Below, piece by piece: positions 36,672-44,516 of a stretch of DNA of 53,643 nt (positions within the stretch are counted from its first letter, which is position 1; every line of letters begins with the position of its first letter). The translations under genes were made by a program, and so were the position numbers. The stretch is from an uncultured Alphaproteobacteria bacterium (lineage in GTDB: Bacteria > Pseudomonadota > Alphaproteobacteria > CAAGCB01 > CAG-977): NCBI GenBank assembly GCA_944393745.1, contig CALYBD010000013.1, positions 1-53,643 of the forward strand, given 5' to 3'. The notes beneath the pieces are model-generated. The model was not told the DNA's origin. It saw only the letters and a list, made by a program, of their open reading frames with translations, and made no database searches.

Positions 36672-37388
36672 TTATAAAACGGGGGCTTGCGGCTTAATCG
36701 TACGCAGATCAATTTGCAACGTTTCCTGCAAAGCGGAGATGCGTTCGCGAATCACCATCAGCCACGGATCATCGGCCGATAAAATTTGTTCCAGATAACG
36801 CCACAAGGCCAGGGCTTTTTGCGGTTCTTGGTTTTGAACCCTGGCCAATCCCAGAAAATAAACGGCTTTCGGATCATCGGGACGATAGCGCAGAACATTT
36901 TCCAATGCTTTTTGAGCTTCGCCCGTAATGCGGCCGTTATTTGCCTGTATCAACGTTTCCGCCAACGCGTGCCAGTTGGAAATATCCTGCGGAATCCCCC
37001 AGGCAATCGCGTTGCGGTAAGCTGCCGTTGCTTCGTCGTAATAACCGGCCTTTCGATACGTTTGCGCAAGATGTTCCCAAGCAACGCCGTCATCGGGGGC
37101 GGCGTCCAGATAACGTTCCATACGTCTGATCTGAGCCATATAACGCGGCAAAGCTTCGGATTCCAGAATGTCTCTGCGTGCCAGAGGATAATCCGGCATC
37201 AGCATTTTTCCCTGGCGGCCGTATAAAAAAGGAACCAATACGGCAAAAAGAAAAAACACAAAACAGATATAAATCAGTTTTGCGGATCCGGATGATCCGT
37301 GTCCGCGGCTTAAAGGCAGGATCGGAAAGATGAACAGGCTTAGTGCGCCGATAGTCAGTAACAGCAGAGCCGTCAAAAATAAAATCAT
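36672..37388 (-). CDS. ccmI: Cytochrome c maturation protein CcmI (CycH-like)
   Basis: A 238-aa protein with two membrane helices (about 3-22 and 38-58) and a periplasmic TPR domain (VAWEHLAQTYRKAGYYDEATAAYRNAI), the layout of the CcmI/CycH chaperone that brings apocytochrome c to the heme ligation complex. It is shorter than classical CcmI (about 400 aa). It is last in ccmF-G-H-I and follows ccmH by 9 bp. Confidence 0.82.
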   Translation of the reverse strand: MILFLTALLLLTIGALSLFIFPILPLSRGHGSSGSAKLIYICFVFFLFAVLVPFLYGRQGKMLMPDYPLARRDILESEALPRYMAQIRRMERYLDAAPDDGVAWEHLAQTYRKAGYYDEATAAYRNAIAWGIPQDISNWHALAETLIQANNGRITGEAQKALENVLRYRPDDPKAVYFLGLARVQNQEPQKALALWRYLEQILSADDPWLMVIRERISALQETLQIDLRTIKPQAPVL

Positions 37389-37397
37389 ACGATCCCC

Positions 37398-37784
37398 TTA
37401 AACGTTGAAATTTTTTGAACGCCGGAAAATATAAAAAGCCATGGCGGCAAAACAAAGCGCCGAAGAAACCAGAGAAAATGTCTTTTCATTTTCGGCCGTC
37501 GGTGTCGGTGCGTCTTCCAAAGAAATCATATCGCCGTATTGCGCCAGCAGCAAATGAACCACCAGATCCTGCGGTTTGCCGTCCGTTAAGTGTTTGCGAA
37601 TGAAAAAGCGCATGTCTTCGGCCGTTTCGTCTCGGGCCGCTTCAATATTTTCATCGGAACAAACCAGACAACGCAGACGGTCTGCGATTTCCAATGCTTC
37701 CGTTTCGACCGAAGCCGCATCGTTTGCCGCTGCCGGAGTGCCAAGGATCAAAAAAACAACCAGAAAATTAAAGAGGTTTTTCAT
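37398..37784 (-). CDS. ccmH: Cytochrome c maturation protein CcmH
   Basis: A 128-aa protein with a signal segment (1-20), the redox motif DRLRCLVCSDENI (C39, C42) in a three-helix domain, and a C-terminal membrane anchor (about 101-120). CcmH keeps the apocytochrome CxxCH thiols reduced for heme attachment. LRCLVC replaces the common LRCPVCQ. It overlaps ccmG by 17 bp. Confidence 0.9.
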   Translation of the reverse strand: MKNLFNFLVVFLILGTPAAANDAASVETEALEIADRLRCLVCSDENIEAARDETAEDMRFFIRKHLTDGKPQDLVVHLLLAQYGDMISLEDAPTPTAENEKTFSLVSSALCFAAMAFYIFRRSKNFNV

Positions 37785-38313
37785 TTTTCAGCTCCTGTAA
37801 GAAAGGCACAACGGTTTGCAAATAAAACTCTTCGGTCATTAATCCTTTGATTCTGGCGGCGACGGCTCCGTTGGCATCTATAATAAAAGCGGTCGGCAGC
37901 TTTCCGGCATTCATCGGTTTTGCCCATATAATTTCCGGATCCAGCGCAATCATTTGAAACGGATTTCCCGTATTTTTTAACAAAGTACGGATTTCTTCGG
38001 GTTTGTCATGGACGGCAATGCCGATAAAAGGCACATCATGCCGGGCAGACAGTTTGACCAGTGTGGGCAGTTCAATCCTGCAGGGACGACACCACGACGC
38101 AAAGAAGAATAAAATTAAAGGCTGTTTTGGCATGGTCTGAACAGAAAAAACGGATTCGGCAGGACGGTCCAACAACTGCAGTTGTCCTTCGGGCAGCGCA
38201 AAAGAATGTTTGATCAGCATGTTTTCCGTCGTGAAGTCAAGCCGTACCGTATATAAAAAATTGGAAAAAAGCAAAGTTGCCAAAAAAATCAATAAAAACC
38301 CGTACCATTTCAT
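37768..38313 (-). CDS. ccmG: Thiol:disulfide oxidoreductase CcmG/DsbE
   Basis: A 181-aa thioredoxin-fold protein anchored by one N-terminal helix (residues 3-22). The active site is WCRPC (C75, C78) in FFASWCRPCRIELPTL; a cis-Pro region is near LPTAFIIDANG. It reduces CcmH or apocytochrome c in the periplasm. The start at 38313 has AAAGGAAC about 8 nt ahead and overlaps the ccmF stop by 4 bp; a longer frame to 38364 lies inside ccmF. Confidence 0.9.
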   Translation of the reverse strand: MKWYGFLLIFLATLLFSNFLYTVRLDFTTENMLIKHSFALPEGQLQLLDRPAESVFSVQTMPKQPLILFFFASWCRPCRIELPTLVKLSARHDVPFIGIAVHDKPEEIRTLLKNTGNPFQMIALDPEIIWAKPMNAGKLPTAFIIDANGAVAARIKGLMTEEFYLQTVVPFLQELKNEKPL

Positions 38314-40226
38314 GATGTCTGTTCCTTTTTGGTTGAAAAGATCAAAAACAGCAATCCCAGGCACATCAGGGACAATCCCGTCGCCGCCGATGTCAGCAGC
38401 GGATAATGCTTTGTACGGATATCCAGACGGTTTTCTTGTGTTTGTTCCGCTTTGATCAGGCGCGGCGTAAATTTGTCCGTTTGCAGTAAAGTGACGTTTA
38501 GTTTTTTATCCTGCCAGCGGAATACGGAATTGCCGTCCAGCAAAGCGGCGCCGGGGGCATCGGCGGTTCGGGTGCAGATCAGGCGGTACTGCGCTGCCGC
38601 CGCATCGTTTTTTTTCGCCAAAGATTCAATTCGGCAGGGCAAAGATCCGGCGCTGTTTGATTCTTGTATGTTTAAAGTCAAAGACGTTTCTTCGCCGTTA
38701 AAAAGGCAATACGCCAAAGAAAAAGAAAAAATCAGGAAGCCCGCCGCGCTGAAGAATGATCCGTAAGCAAGGGCGCTTGTTGTCTTGATCTTTTTGAACG
38801 CTGCCGAAAACGATGTCGGAAGTCTGACGGGTTTTGCCGTAAAGACGGTATTTAAAATAAGGACGGCCGGCAAAAACGATAAAACAATTTTCAAGCCGTT
38901 ATTTACTTCCAACAGGCAAAAACAAATCAGTGTTAAAGCAATTCCCCAAAAACACAGGTCCGTTTTCCAATCGGTTTTTATCCACCCTTTGCCCAGCGAA
39001 CGTCTTTTAAAGGCCAGAAAGAAAAAGAAAGTAAAAACAATGCCGGCAATGGCGGAAATTTCTTTAAACAAAGCCGGCAACAGTCGCAACGGCAAATCAG
39101 GCAGGAACATGAACAGCATCGGCAGCAAAGATAACGCGCCGATGTTTAATCCGGCCGCCAACAAAGCAGCCGCAGCCAAACCGATAAAGCTTTCCCGCGA
39201 AAGGATAAAAAAGTTGTTTTCCGGCAGCGACTTTTTAATCATGGCCGAGCTCAGAAACAATAAAAAACAGCTTGTTGCGGCAAAAGCGCTCAGCGCCGTA
39301 ACGGGATTGGGGAAATAAACTTCATCGGCGGACAAAGAAAACAGCCTGTATTCCGCGGCAAAAAAATCGGCGCTGAAAAAAGCCAGGCCGATTACGGCGA
39401 ACACAATGATCCAATTTGTAAAAACGCGGGAATAACGGCAAAAGAACAACAATAAAGTCTGTCCGGCCGTTAATATCAAAACCGATATCAGCAAAGCATT
39501 GTTCGGCGTCCATTGCCACAAAACGCCCTTTTCCGCCGTTGTAAATCCCGTCATCAGCTTTGACCCCAGCGCACAGATCAAACAGATCAAAGCAATCAGA
39601 CAGCCGCGCAGCGCCGGTTCGACGAATTGGCGGCCTTTGGAATACATACTGACCGTTTTTATAAAAGAAACGGTTAAAGCCGCATACGCTAAAAACAAAA
39701 ATAATATTTCCAACGTTTTGTGCGGCGGGCGCCATTCCGGATTGAAACCGACGCCTTCAAACGGCGGATTTTCAATTCTGATAAACGGATCCGCCGTCGT
39801 CAGCATCAGTCCCAGCAGACAAAAAATCAAAAATCCGCCGGCAAACAAATAGCGTCCCCGTTCCTGATAAGTCGGCAGATCTTTTTTGGAAAAACAAAAC
39901 AGAATACAGGCCGTCAAAATAACAATAAAAGTAAAAAAGAATCCTTCGCGCGATGAACAAAAAGCCTGCAGAGCGTAAAACAAACTGCTTTGGGAATCAA
40001 AAGTTTCAAAGACAACGGCCAAAGAAAAATCATGCGTGGCGTAACCGTACAGCAAAACGCAAAAAGAAAACAACAACAGCGCCGATGTAAAACAAGCCCC
40101 TCTGAACCCCAGTTTGATCGCAACGGCGGATCCGCCGGACCACAAGGTGGGCGCCAGCAGAAAAGTCTGCAATCCGACAGCCGTCAGAGCAAATATGACG
40201 GTATAATGAGCCAGTTCAATCAGCAT
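38310..40226 (-). CDS. ccmF: CcmF-like heme lyase subunit lacking the WWD motif
   Basis: A 638-aa polytopic protein that aligns with CcmF by eye over its N-terminal 250 residues (HDFSLAVVFETFDSQS; SSREGFFFT; TADPFIRIENPPFEGVGFNP) and again at LSRESFIGLAAAALLAAG. In the WWD region it reads VLWQWTPNNALL (236-247) instead of WWxWDPVENxS. The HPP heme-ligand His is gone (PPHKTLEIL), the SVHxF segment is lost, and LAH near the C-terminus is LAY. The operon is intact, so the gene is probably functional in an altered way. Confidence 0.8.
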   Translation of the reverse strand: MLIELAHYTVIFALTAVGLQTFLLAPTLWSGGSAVAIKLGFRGACFTSALLLFSFCVLLYGYATHDFSLAVVFETFDSQSSLFYALQAFCSSREGFFFTFIVILTACILFCFSKKDLPTYQERGRYLFAGGFLIFCLLGLMLTTADPFIRIENPPFEGVGFNPEWRPPHKTLEILFLFLAYAALTVSFIKTVSMYSKGRQFVEPALRGCLIALICLICALGSKLMTGFTTAEKGVLWQWTPNNALLISVLILTAGQTLLLFFCRYSRVFTNWIIVFAVIGLAFFSADFFAAEYRLFSLSADEVYFPNPVTALSAFAATSCFLLFLSSAMIKKSLPENNFFILSRESFIGLAAAALLAAGLNIGALSLLPMLFMFLPDLPLRLLPALFKEISAIAGIVFTFFFFLAFKRRSLGKGWIKTDWKTDLCFWGIALTLICFCLLEVNNGLKIVLSFLPAVLILNTVFTAKPVRLPTSFSAAFKKIKTTSALAYGSFFSAAGFLIFSFSLAYCLFNGEETSLTLNIQESNSAGSLPCRIESLAKKNDAAAAQYRLICTRTADAPGAALLDGNSVFRWQDKKLNVTLLQTDKFTPRLIKAEQTQENRLDIRTKHYPLLTSAATGLSLMCLGLLFLIFSTKKEQTS

Positions 40227-40366
40227 TTCGGTCCTTTGTTTGAAACAATTCTTCAGTCAGGTTAGAAAACTCTGTCTCTTTTTGCAAGAATCAAAAGACG
40301 GCTTTTCTTTTTTTTCAGACTGTGATAGCATAATTAAAATTAAAAAGTTTGATAAGGAAAACTTTT

Positions 40367-40615
40367 ATGAATAAAGAAGCAACGCCTGTACGCAGTTTTA
40401 CGGGATTAAAGGCCGGGGATAAGGCGGTTATCGCCGGATTTTTAAAGGGAAATGCGGCTTATCGCAAAAAGCTGCTGGCCATGGGGGTTACACCCGGTAC
40501 GCCGTTTGAAGTTGTTCGCATTGCTCCGTTCGGCGACCCGGTCGAAATTATGATACGCGGCTATTTGGTTTCTCTGCGCCGCGAAGAAGCTTCTTTGATT
40601 TCTGTATCCGACTGA
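40367..40615 (+). CDS. feoA: Ferrous iron transport protein FeoA
   Basis: An 82-aa SH3-like protein, the small cytoplasmic partner of FeoB: LKAGDKAVIAGFLKG, LLAMGVTPGTPFEVV and DPVEIMIRGYLVSLRREEA are the family core. AAGGAAAA 7 nt before the ATG at 40367 fixes the start; the frame is open further up without a site. It is first in feoABC. The AT-rich leader (40300-40360) may hold a Fur or Fnr site, but I cannot name one. Confidence 0.92.
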   Translation: MNKEATPVRSFTGLKAGDKAVIAGFLKGNAAYRKKLLAMGVTPGTPFEVVRIAPFGDPVEIMIRGYLVSLRREEASLISVSD

Positions 40616-40637
40616 CAACAAGGATAAGTAACGTCAG

Positions 40638-42773
40638 ATGCCATCTTATAAAACAGCAGCTTTAATCGGCAATCCGAATTGCGGCAAAACGACGCTTTTT
40701 AATGCGTTGACGGGGGCGCATCAATATGTGGGTAACTGGCCGGGGGTGACGGTTGAAAAAAAATCGGGTTTTTTTGAATATGACGGCGTGAAAGTCGAAG
40801 TCGTCGATCTGCCGGGCGTGTATTCTCTAAGCGTTGTTTCCAGCGCGTCCGAAGACGAAAAGATCACACGGGATTATCTGCTGTTTAACAAACCGGACTG
40901 CGTTGTCAATATTCTGGACGCGTCCAATCTGGAACGCAATCTGTATATGACGGTGCAGCTGTTTGAAATGCATCTGCCCGTTATTTTGGTCTTAAACATG
41001 ATGGATACGGCCGCGGCGGCAAAAATAAAAATTGATGTTTTGGCCTTAGCGCAGATTTTTAACGTCCCCGTTATTCCGATGGTGGCTTCCAGGGTCAAAG
41101 GCGTTGAAGAATTAAAAAGGCAGATTGTTCAGTCTGATCTGCGGATTAATGAAAATTTTGTTATTCCGTATTCGCCGCATATCGAAAGCGCTGTCGGCGA
41201 ATTGCTGCCGTATATTTCCCGGACGGCGGAATCAAATGACTGGCCTGTTCGTTGGCTGGCCGTTCATCTGTTGGACGGGGATATTGATCCGCGGTTGTTC
41301 GGTTCGCCCGAAAATAAAAAACGAATAGAAAAAATCACGGCAACTTTTCCCGATAAGTATCATGAAGATGCCGATACGATGATTGCCGACGGCCGTTACG
41401 GCTTTATTACGCAAATCAGTCGCCGCCTGATTACGCGTTCCGACCGGTTGTCAAAAACGGTAACGGAAATGATTGATCGGGTCGCTTTGGGAAAATATAC
41501 GGGTATGCCGTTGTTTTTTCTGGTGATGTATTTGATGTTTTTATGGACGATTTCACTGGGAAATCTGCTGATTGATCCGATTGCAGAATTTGGCGACGAA
41601 TATCTGGTGGCCGGCTTTTCGTCCCTGCTGGCTTCTTTGAACGTGCCGCATTGGCTGAATGTTTTTTTGTCCGAAGGGGTCGGGCGCGGTGTCAGTACGG
41701 TAGCGACTTTTGTGCCGCCGATCGGGTTTTTGTTTTTATTTCTTTCGGCATTGGAAGATTCGGGATACATGGCACGCGGTGCTTTTGTTATGGATAAACT
41801 GATGCGCGGGTTTAATCTGCCGGGGACGGCTTTTGTGCCGATGATTGTTGCTTTCGGCTGTACGGTTCCGGCCGTGATGGGGACGCGGATTTTATCGTCC
41901 CGGCGTGATCGGTTGATTACGCTGATGATGACGCCGTTTATGTCCTGCGGCGCCAGACTGCCGGTTTATGCGTTGTTTGCAACGGCATTCTTTGACGAAT
42001 GGGGGGCGGATATTGTTTTTGCGCTGTATCTGTGCGGGATTTGTATTGCCGTCGTAACGGGCATTTTATTTAAAAAGACACTGTTTAAAGGAAAGCCCGT
42101 TCCGTTGATTTTGGAAATGCCGCCGTATCATTTGCCGACAATTAAAAACATGGCCGTCAGGACATGGGACAGACTGCGCGGGTTTATTATTCGTGCCGGT
42201 GCCTTGATCGTGCCGTTGGTTATTGTGTTGAATTTGCTGAACGCCGTTGATTTTAAGGGAAACTTTATTCCGCAATCGCCGGAAAAATCGATTTTGTCTT
42301 CTATCGGCAAGGCTGTTACTCCGGCGTTTGAACCGATGGGAATTACGGAACAAAACTGGCCGGCGACCGTCGGGTTGTTTACAGGCGTAATGGCCAAAGA
42401 AGCCATTATCGGCACGTTGGACGCGTTATATGCCGGTTTATCCGAAGGCGCAACGTCAACGGATCGTTTGGTTGTTTTGTTTGACGGAAAAACGGGCGCT
42501 TTTGCATATTTGCTGTTTGTTTTGCTTTATATGCCCTGTTTGTCGGCAATGGGTGCGATTGCCAAGGAATTCGGTCTGCGTTGGGCCGGTTTTGTGATGG
42601 TCTGGACAACGGGGCAGGCGTATCTGCTCTCGACACTGTTTTATCAATCTGCTATCATTCAACGTGGTATGTCGTATTCCGCCGGCTGGATTATCGGAAT
42701 AATTCTGGCCGAGCTGATTATCTTTACGGCTTTGTATTTGATCGGGAAAAGGAGGCCGTATGATTCTTTCTGA
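40638..42773 (+). CDS. feoB: Ferrous iron transporter FeoB
   Basis: A 711-aa GTP-dependent Fe2+ permease. The N-terminal G domain has GNPNCGKTTLFNALTG (11-26), VDLPGVYSL and LNMMD; two Gate-type transmembrane blocks follow, with CTVPAVMGTR and MSCGARLPVY carrying Cys of the putative metal path. Its end overlaps feoC by 14 bp. Fe2+ is the form available in anoxic habitats. Confidence 0.95.
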   Translation: MPSYKTAALIGNPNCGKTTLFNALTGAHQYVGNWPGVTVEKKSGFFEYDGVKVEVVDLPGVYSLSVVSSASEDEKITRDYLLFNKPDCVVNILDASNLERNLYMTVQLFEMHLPVILVLNMMDTAAAAKIKIDVLALAQIFNVPVIPMVASRVKGVEELKRQIVQSDLRINENFVIPYSPHIESAVGELLPYISRTAESNDWPVRWLAVHLLDGDIDPRLFGSPENKKRIEKITATFPDKYHEDADTMIADGRYGFITQISRRLITRSDRLSKTVTEMIDRVALGKYTGMPLFFLVMYLMFLWTISLGNLLIDPIAEFGDEYLVAGFSSLLASLNVPHWLNVFLSEGVGRGVSTVATFVPPIGFLFLFLSALEDSGYMARGAFVMDKLMRGFNLPGTAFVPMIVAFGCTVPAVMGTRILSSRRDRLITLMMTPFMSCGARLPVYALFATAFFDEWGADIVFALYLCGICIAVVTGILFKKTLFKGKPVPLILEMPPYHLPTIKNMAVRTWDRLRGFIIRAGALIVPLVIVLNLLNAVDFKGNFIPQSPEKSILSSIGKAVTPAFEPMGITEQNWPATVGLFTGVMAKEAIIGTLDALYAGLSEGATSTDRLVVLFDGKTGAFAYLLFVLLYMPCLSAMGAIAKEFGLRWAGFVMVWTTGQAYLLSTLFYQSAIIQRGMSYSAGWIIGIILAELIIFTALYLIGKRRPYDSF

Positions 42774-43010: not shown

Positions 43011-44516
43011 CTAATACGTTACGCCGGACGACATGATTTTGTAACCGCAGTCTCCTTCGGCCAGACCGTTGGCAAAGGCGAATGATGTCGGTTTGCAGGC
43101 ATAAATGCGGTAAAGGACTTCGCCTTGTTCGACCTCGTCCCCGACTTTTTTCAGCAAGTCTATGCCGGCGCCTTTATCGGCAGGTGCTCCGGCAGTCATG
43201 GCAATCCGGTTTAAAATCTGCCCGTCGATTTCCGAAATAATGCCGGACGTTTCGGCGGTGATATCACGCGTCAGCTGTCCCAACGGCGGCGGAGTCTGTT
43301 TACCCTGTGCGTGGACGATTTGGCTCATGACTTCCAGCGCGCGCCCGGAATCCAAAATGTCCCGAGCCTGATAGTATCCTTGTCCGCCGCGCAACTGCGG
43401 ATCGAATTCCAGAACTTTTCCCGCCATAAACAGAGCCTTTTCGCGCAGATCCTGCGGCGCATCTTCACGACAGCGCAAAACTTTCATGACATCGCGCGCT
43501 TCCAATACGGGACCGATGCCGTTACCGACCGGTTCGGATCCGTCCGTCACAATGACATCAATTTTGATCGACAGCATATCTCCGACATATTCAAAAAGTT
43601 TACGCAGACTCATTGCTTCGCTCATATTGCGGATTTTTGCCGTTTTGCCGACGGGTATATCTACCAGTAAGTGCGTAATACCCATGGCGATTTTGCTTGA
43701 TAAAATCGATGCGACGATCTGCTGGGGCGTGCTGATACCCAAAGCGCGTTCCAAGCTCATCAGCAGGTCTTCTGTCGCCGACATGGCCAGACGCTGTCCG
43801 TCCAAAACCATGCAGCCGCCGATTTCATTGACGGTTGCCGCGGTTTCTTCTTCGGATAATTCAACGTTGGCCAGGACTTCCATGGCATCGGCCGCGCCGG
43901 AACAAGACGTCACGCTGCGCGTCATGGTACTGGGCATACATAATCCGTATGCGATTGCAATCGGTACAACAATCATTGTCGTTCGGTTCGCGGGAATACC
44001 GCCGATGCAGTGTTCGTCAACGACCAGATCAATGCCCCAGTCGGCCGGTCTGCGGTATTCGATTAAGGCTTCGGTCATGGACAGAACTTCCTGCGGGGAC
44101 ATAAAACTGGCGTTGGATACCAAAAAGGCCGCCAGTTCAATCGGGGTATAACGGTATGCGGCCAAATCGGCAATAATGCTGCGGTATTCTTTGGCGCTGA
44201 GGATCCCGCCGTTGATTTTTCGCCGCACGGAATCAATGCTGGCCGGCGGCGGTGCCGGAGAAATAGCCACTTCGGATCCTTCGGGCATGCTGATTAAGTG
44301 GAACGCCTGATCTGTCAAAGCGATTTCATCGGGTTTGACCAGTGTTTCGTCTTCGCATATATAGACGCTGGCAAACAGCGGCTGCAATCCGCCGTGAATT
44401 TCGACGCGGTTTGCGGTCATGTTGGAATCTTCTGTCTGGAATTCCGGACACCGTTTATGAATAAAGACGATGTTTTCTTTGCCCGTATCAATCGGCAGAT
44501 GTTTTAAACGCAACAT
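43011..44516 (-). CDS. AMP/thymidine phosphorylase-like enzyme (archaeal-type DeoA)
   Basis: A 501-aa pyrimidine-phosphorylase-fold protein with the extra N-terminal domain of about 85 residues (LPIDTGKENIVFIHKRC) seen in archaeal AMP phosphorylases and the bacterial 'putative thymidine phosphorylase' group. Core motifs are DEHCIGGIPANRTTMIVVPI, TSCSGAADAMEVLA and DGSEPVGNGIGPVLEA. It should split a nucleoside or nucleoside monophosphate with phosphate; which one cannot be read. It is convergent with feoC at 6 bp. Confidence 0.82.
   Translation of the reverse strand: MLRLKHLPIDTGKENIVFIHKRCPEFQTEDSNMTANRVEIHGGLQPLFASVYICEDETLVKPDEIALTDQAFHLISMPEGSEVAISPAPPPASIDSVRRKINGGILSAKEYRSIIADLAAYRYTPIELAAFLVSNASFMSPQEVLSMTEALIEYRRPADWGIDLVVDEHCIGGIPANRTTMIVVPIAIAYGLCMPSTMTRSVTSCSGAADAMEVLANVELSEEETAATVNEIGGCMVLDGQRLAMSATEDLLMSLERALGISTPQQIVASILSSKIAMGITHLLVDIPVGKTAKIRNMSEAMSLRKLFEYVGDMLSIKIDVIVTDGSEPVGNGIGPVLEARDVMKVLRCREDAPQDLREKALFMAGKVLEFDPQLRGGQGYYQARDILDSGRALEVMSQIVHAQGKQTPPPLGQLTRDITAETSGIISEIDGQILNRIAMTAGAPADKGAGIDLLKKVGDEVEQGEVLYRIYACKPTSFAFANGLAEGDCGYKIMSSGVTY

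Follow-up and report, generated by a model that had tools for sequence, protein, structure and literature searches.

A CcmF-G-H-I operon without heme-site residues is probably put to another job in a gut-dwelling order of Alphaproteobacteria

We analyzed a window of 53,643 nucleotides (contig CALYBD010000013.1 of assembly GCA_944393745.1) from an uncultured member of the alphaproteobacterial order CAAGCB01. Its reverse strand carries a ccmF-like gene (38310..40226) whose 638-amino-acid product has the predicted fold of CcmF and lacks the heme-site residues. The gene heads an operon that is the synthase (second) half of System I, CcmF-G-H-I, without the CcmE and CcmC of the first half. In Escherichia coli, holoCcmE hands heme to the WWD domain of CcmFH, where the heme lies between the two residues P-His1 and P-His2; TM-His1 and TM-His2 hold a b-heme that is the proposed reductant, and CcmG and CcmH reduce the cysteines of the CxxCH motif (PMC10746174). 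Judging from its aligned residues, the CcmF-like protein is very probably no longer a heme lyase. The complex of this gut-dwelling order probably now does another job, because it is intact and under selection while the heme-holding residues, the delivery genes, and the cytochromes appear to be gone. We see roughly even chances that this job is that of a thiol reductase or holdase, for which the client, the path of the electrons, and the way the complex assembles are all inferred.

The evidence that the gene encodes a member of the CcmF family came from profiles and from a structure model. Its open reading frame (ORF) runs from ATG to TGA over 638 codons with zero internal stops, as a preliminary description of the window had claimed. 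The product matched the NCBIfam CcmF/NrfE model TIGR00353 over residues 54-634 (E = 1.3e-16), with a score of 60.6 bits that lies below the curated cut-off of 569.05. A Pfam search of the protein yielded zero matches, PF01578 included, and searching the PDB with its sequence alone gave no match. We then considered the order as a whole, represented by 12 genomes from three genera. When a profile of the 12 order members was aligned with one of 27 canonical CcmFs (hhalign), the probability was 99.95 and the alignment covered residues 1-633. An AlphaFold 2 (AF2) model from 12 sequences (predicted local distance difference test, 81.4; predicted template modeling score, 0.85) depicts a multi-helix membrane protein, for which the CcmF of Thermus thermophilus (6zmq) was the sole structure match below E = 0.001 (E = 1.2e-14, TMq 0.69). 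Against 6zmq the model reached a Z score of 32.1 with 551 of 589 residues aligned. The next match, at Z 15.2 over 286 residues, was the System II synthase CcsBA (7s9y), whose heme-handling core has the same fold. By alignment and model, then, the product is a CcmF/NrfE homolog over its full length with the CcmF fold kept, in line with the earlier description.

What has been lost is the heme site. We tallied alignment columns with MAFFT over 40 sequences, comprising the 12 order members and 28 canonical CcmF/NrfE proteins, the latter being E. coli CcmF and NrfE together with the 26 best-scoring of 204 outside-order genomes with a match, a choice that leans towards the most similar. Histidine occupies the columns of P-His1 (E. 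coli H173), P-His2 (H303), and TM-His2 (H491) in 28/28 canonical proteins and that of TM-His1 (H261) in 27/28, versus 0/12 order members at all four positions. The AF2Complex paper prints TM-His2 as His461 (PMC8975832). Position 461 of E. coli CcmF is a Trp, however, and the histidine of the conserved AHxG motif lies at 491, so H491 was used.

If codons are counted from the ORF start at 40226, the P-His1 column falls on Glu at codon 173 (39708..39710) and the TM-His1 column on Leu at codon 258 (39453..39455), a position held by L, V, or I across the order. The P-His2 column is Glu at codon 302 (39321-39323), within codons 292-311 (39294..39353; EYRLF..EVYFPNP), and the TM-His2 column is Ala at codon 494 (38745..38747). 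The preliminary description had reported the ligand histidines as lost, among them the His of HPP and the SVHxF segment, and these claims stood. It had also read LAY in place of LAH at the last site, which was mistaken, as the H491 column is Ala494 and not the Tyr of LAY. In total the window's protein has four histidines (7, 65, 169, and 607), none in a ligand column; His169, in RPPHKTL, lies near the lost HPP and varies between relatives. The column of the HEG histidine (E. coli H92) is likewise His in 28/28 canonical proteins versus Arg in 12/12 order members (REG; codon 93, 39948..39950).

The WWD motif was described as lost, and this was correct only in part. In the aligned stretch (E. coli W229-S249; codons 226-246, 39489..39551), W229, A230, W236, D243, V245, E246, and N247 are present in 28/28 canonical proteins versus 0/12 order members. 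W242 and P244 survive in 11/12 members each ("QWTP" in the window), and the motif is therefore gutted rather than wholly gone. A misalignment hiding the His or WWD residues was considered and ruled out, given that neither MAFFT nor the separate hhalign alignment placed them elsewhere in the protein. For comparison, a text search of 26 loci from the class found the WDPVEN motif, HPP, and S-[VI]-H-x-F in all 26. On its residues, this CcmF-fold member fails the tests of a working heme lyase and is to be classed as a variant form of the CcmF family.

We ran family searches over the 12 order genomes and 14 control genomes, with each family, DsbD included, matching 5-10 of the 14 controls. The 12 order genomes had no match to CcmE, to PF01578 (which covers CcmC/CcsA, the CcsB type, and canonical CcmF), to the cytochrome c family PF13442 (other cytochrome c families were not searched), to ferrochelatase (PF00762; heme importers and other heme routes were not searched), or to cytochrome bd subunit I. 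PF01578 thereby also sets the order apart from CcsBA systems. With PF01578 unmatched and CcmF-like sequence in exactly one place of each order genome searched (12/12 by protein search, with four sampled in the class-wide search), a second canonical ccmF was ruled out as well. Among exported CxxCH ORFs in about 20% of the window's own genome (the window and 20 further stretches of 20 kb each), we found only one TPR protein with two CxxC knuckles.

These results bear on the possibility that the module still handles heme, either gut-derived or made by a route without PF00762, using other residues to bind it and fastening it to unusual proteins. The named families leave room for other c-type cytochromes, heme routes, and importers, and the WWD motif retains W242 and P244. 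However, the 12 order proteins share no invariant His or Cys column, neither CcmE, CcmC/CcsA, nor PF13442 was matched, and the sole exported CxxCH candidate was the TPR protein with CxxC knuckles. We regard this explanation as very unlikely, and heme attachment by another route, which had been suggested earlier, is disfavored on the same grounds (no CcmE, CcmC/CcsA, PF13442, ferrochelatase, or cytochrome bd match in 12/12). With neither ferrochelatase nor cytochrome bd matched, it may be that the order does without heme altogether.

In a sample of 289 genomes of the class, CcmH was found in 216 and CcmE in 224 (208 with both and 16 with CcmE alone). By-eye comparison of the lists left 8 of the 216 with CcmH and without CcmE, and four of these eight are all four sampled members of the order. 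Of the other four, at least three seem to reflect gaps or an isolated gene. In G122 and G236, pieces of canonical CcmF lie next to CcmH on short contigs. A CcmF match was also obtained for G202, which is 64% complete. G013, from another family of the class (81% complete), carries a lone CcmH-like ORF with LQCSVC (L079:6474-6974); its genome has no CcmE or CcmF match, and its 11-kb contig has no F, G, or I.

The partners of the CcmF-like protein are in place. The ATG of ccmG (38313) overlaps the ccmF stop as ATGA, and the gene (37768..38313, reverse strand like the others) encodes a CcmG-like thioredoxin with WCRPC (TIGR00385, CcmG/DsbE, E = 9.3e-21). It is followed by a ccmH-like gene with LRCLVC (37398..37784; PF03918, E = 2.6e-16) and a gene for a CcmI-like TPR protein (36672..37388; PF23914, E = 7e-13); TIGR03145 and the NrfF and NrfG models match the operon weakly. 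The active sites of CcmG (WCRPC) and CcmH (LRCxxC) had been reported as kept, which we confirmed. Across the order the CxxC of CcmG is present in 12/12 genomes (as WCxPC in 11), and that of CcmH is present in 12/12. After the Cys pair, the window's CcmH reads SDEN (SDENIE) versus QNES or KNQS (canonical QNxSI) in the class proteins on L080 and L081, and its relatives on L016-L026 likewise depart from the canonical motif. Compared with the canonical CcmI proteins of the same two loci, the region AETLIQ...YFLGLA of the window's CcmI is recognizably kept. Scans for promoters, terminators, and inverted repeats were uninformative.

The operon is clearly under purifying selection. The ccmF-like ORF is free of stops in 12/12 genomes at 32-68% identity to the window protein, and the F-G-H-I gene order is identical in all 12. 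We estimated the ratio of nonsynonymous to synonymous substitution rates (dN/dS) with the pairwise Nei-Gojobori method in four pairs within genus. The values are rough, with dS saturated (>1.2 throughout the operon), and came to 0.08-0.15 for ccmF, 0.05 for ccmG (two pairs not computable), 0.04-0.13 for ccmH, and 0.04-0.09 for ccmI, alongside 0.03-0.10 for three neighbor genes in the same pairs. A pseudogene or frameshift was thus rejected on the uninterrupted frames and dN/dS, and an assembly artifact on the agreement of 12 genomes from three genera; nor are the relatives pseudogenized, as their intact ORFs and low dN/dS indicate.

Several observations nevertheless count against a complex with a new function. 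One is the saturation of dS just noted. Another is that ccmF evolves fast, with 68% identity to its nearest relative versus 85-93% for three neighbors. Three of the four genomes of group g3 (L024, L025, and L026) have CcmF-like proteins of 520-538 amino acids without most of the C-terminal periplasmic domain, which a relict would show too. The CcmG of L026 has KCKAC instead of WCxPC, and DsbD was not found in G002, a genome that is 95% complete. Of the heme-delivery half of System I, the searches covered CcmE and CcmC.

Some of these points would suit a slow relict, in which synthase genes left over from a respiratory ancestor drift without function and ccmF drifts fastest. Indeed, ccmF and ccmG change faster than the neighbor genes and are the fastest evolving of the locus, the C-terminal domain was lost in three genomes, and the heme site is gone. 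Yet a relict would have to account for ORFs and operons that are intact in 12/12 genomes over three genera, for dN/dS of 0.04-0.15, and for catalytic cysteines kept in 12/12. It would also have to account for ccmI, which is 81-85% identical in the four within-genus pairs and the slowest of the four operon genes in three of them, and for new invariant residues in the CcmF-like protein. We therefore consider a relict unlikely.

The new residues deserve attention in their own right. In the order, the P-His2 column is Glu in 10/12 proteins, Asp in one, and Gln in one. The conserved Phe that follows P-His2 has become Tyr304 in 12/12 members and leads into an invariant FPNP. R93, Y304, F305, P306, and N307 are all fixed in 12/12 order proteins and missing from the 28 canonical ones, so that new constraint is favored over drift. 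The alignment indicates that the residues replacing the heme ligands are not random. The most conserved stretches are 111-127 (the TYQERGRYL region), 292-311 (EYxLF..YFPNP), and 367-384, while among the least constrained by modal fraction are the WWD-equivalent loop (0.55), residues 385-505 (0.46), and the C-terminal domain (0.34).

Such a pattern raises the possibility that the rebuilt complex fastens or inserts a cofactor other than protoheme on the cysteines of an exported protein, through a site made of E302, Y304, and R93. The Glu, Asp, or Gln of the P-His2 column in 12/12, its Tyr neighbor in 12/12, and the change of HEG to REG in 12/12 are in keeping with this, as are the best conserved stretches (111-127, 292-311, and 367-384). 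On the other side, both cofactor and client would be hypothetical, and the operon has no additional gene as a constant companion across the 12 genomes. We judge this quite improbable.

Next to the operon in the window lie two divergent genes on the forward strand, at 40349-40615 and 40638-42773 (together 40349..42773), which from their sequences we take to be feoA and feoB. They stand beside the operon in 10/12 genomes. In L025 and L026, both of group g3, a gene like that at 43011-44516 of the window, presumably thymidine-phosphorylase-like, adjoins the operon in their place. Because two g3 genomes have this other gene there, feoAB is probably only context and not part of the operon. Together with the multi-helix membrane character of the protein, the feoAB neighbor in 10/12 genomes might suggest that CcmF has turned into a transporter or channel and that G, H, and I are kept by operon context only. 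But the two g3 genomes lack an adjoining feo, CcmG and CcmH keep their cysteines, and CcmI is well conserved, all of which make this idea most improbable.

Returning to a complex with another job, comparison with known systems helps to define what remains of it. The order's protein resembles the CcmF of System I (E. coli; T. thermophilus 6ZMQ) in full-length homology, fold, and the partners CcmG, CcmH, and CcmI. It differs in lacking the four heme-ligand histidines along with W229, A230, W236, and D243 (12/12), and in belonging to genomes without a CcmE or CcmC match, although CcmG and CcmH with their active-site Cys pairs and the TPR protein CcmI are kept. NrfEFG, the heme lyase for the CxxCK site of NrfA, is alike as an E-F-G type module with a TPR partner. 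Unlike the order protein, E. coli NrfE has the WWD and His motifs, and reading of the loci, with no search made, revealed no recognizable NrfA gene beside the operon. System I* of archaea and Desulfovibrio is also a trimmed Ccm system. As described, it lacks G or H but retains a CcmE in which Cys replaces His (PMC3601427), whereas the order keeps F, G, H, and I without E and C matches, nearly a mirror image. In the titles and abstract beginnings of the open-access literature, a scope outside which most subscription papers and all preprints fall, we found no description of a heme-free CcmF or Ccm module.

Another related system is the periplasmic reductive branch from DsbD to CcmG. CcmG with CxxC is present in 12/12 order genomes and DsbD in 11/12, the window's own genome included, where its N-terminal, membrane, and thioredoxin domains are all present. 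In described systems, as far as the available accounts go, this branch serves apocytochromes c, whereas none were found in the order with PF13442 and the partial CxxCH sample. By eye, the own-genome DsbD gene (L068:4992-10049) sits among Sel1-repeat-like proteins, and the same is seen in G011 (L074).

How might the complex work without heme? The lineage may have given up heme-based respiration, with the apoprotein-handling side of the machine staying and losing its heme. DsbD would pass electrons to CcmG through WCxPC, CcmG and CcmH (LRCxxC) would reduce or hold the cysteines of an exported client, CcmI would bind that client through its TPR, and CcmF would serve as the membrane platform on which CcmH and CcmG dock, its former P-heme pocket rebuilt with R93, E302, Y304, and PNP. 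Without heme, the rest of the cycle could still run, from DsbD to CcmG and through CcmG/CcmH to a client that CcmI would hold on the CcmF platform. In the CcmFH study, all E. coli WWD alanine variants still copurify with CcmH and holoCcmE (PMC10746174), so the loss of WWD need not break the complex. A published AF2Complex model docks CcmG and CcmH on CcmF and has a groove for a CxxC apoprotein substrate (PMC8975832). A scaffold or thiol-handling role had been proposed in the preliminary description; it fits the kept CxxC pairs and DsbD in 11/12 genomes, and it is a role that we infer.

For clients, we looked at exported ORFs picked by a crude hydrophobic-N-terminus rule in a sample of the own genome (G000), six relatives, and four controls. 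Ten Cys-rich exported ORFs were found in order genomes, and 8 were kept after reading, in about 1.02 Mb (four from G000, one from G001, and three from G010). Dropped were L087:7335-9236, NuoF-like by eye and not exported, and L107:10415-11227, a multi-helix membrane protein. Nothing was kept from the sampled parts of G004, G008, G009, or G011, and 0.35 Mb of the four control genomes contained no such ORF. At an equal rate, finding none in the controls would have P = 0.065, which is not significant on thin sampling, and the difference between order and controls is therefore not established. The four own-genome proteins have 20-60 cysteines with CxxC repeats, and for them Pfam returned either no match or sub-threshold ones, Giardia VSP among these. 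These four (L087:82-2211, L096:24-701, L098:1418-2329, and L101:18089-18808), like L114:950-2887 of G001 and L135:1-5111 of G010, are exported and extremely Cys-rich with CxxC motifs, their exported parts containing 20 to 96 Cys. Exported CxxC-repeat proteins are thus a weak lead as clients of the complex. In its most specific form, the proposal would be that the synthase half was rewired in a heme-free order into a membrane thiol reductase/holdase for exported CxxC-repeat proteins, with recognition of CxxCH giving way to CxxC-repeat surface proteins and a non-heme site (R93, E302, and Y304) in the former P-heme pocket; taken as a whole, this is doubtful.

Similarity to CcmG or CcmH, or loose similarity to CcmF, does not imply that a genome encodes cytochromes c, and annotations should be read with that in mind. 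In the literature considered here, the roles of CcmG, CcmH, and CcmI beyond heme attachment are still unclear (PMC3601427), because heme and thiol chemistry are inseparable in working systems. In this order F, G, H, and I were kept while the heme ligands, the delivery genes, and the detected cytochromes went, which makes it a clean natural experiment. With the heme side gone, any activity that the complex retains must be independent of heme.

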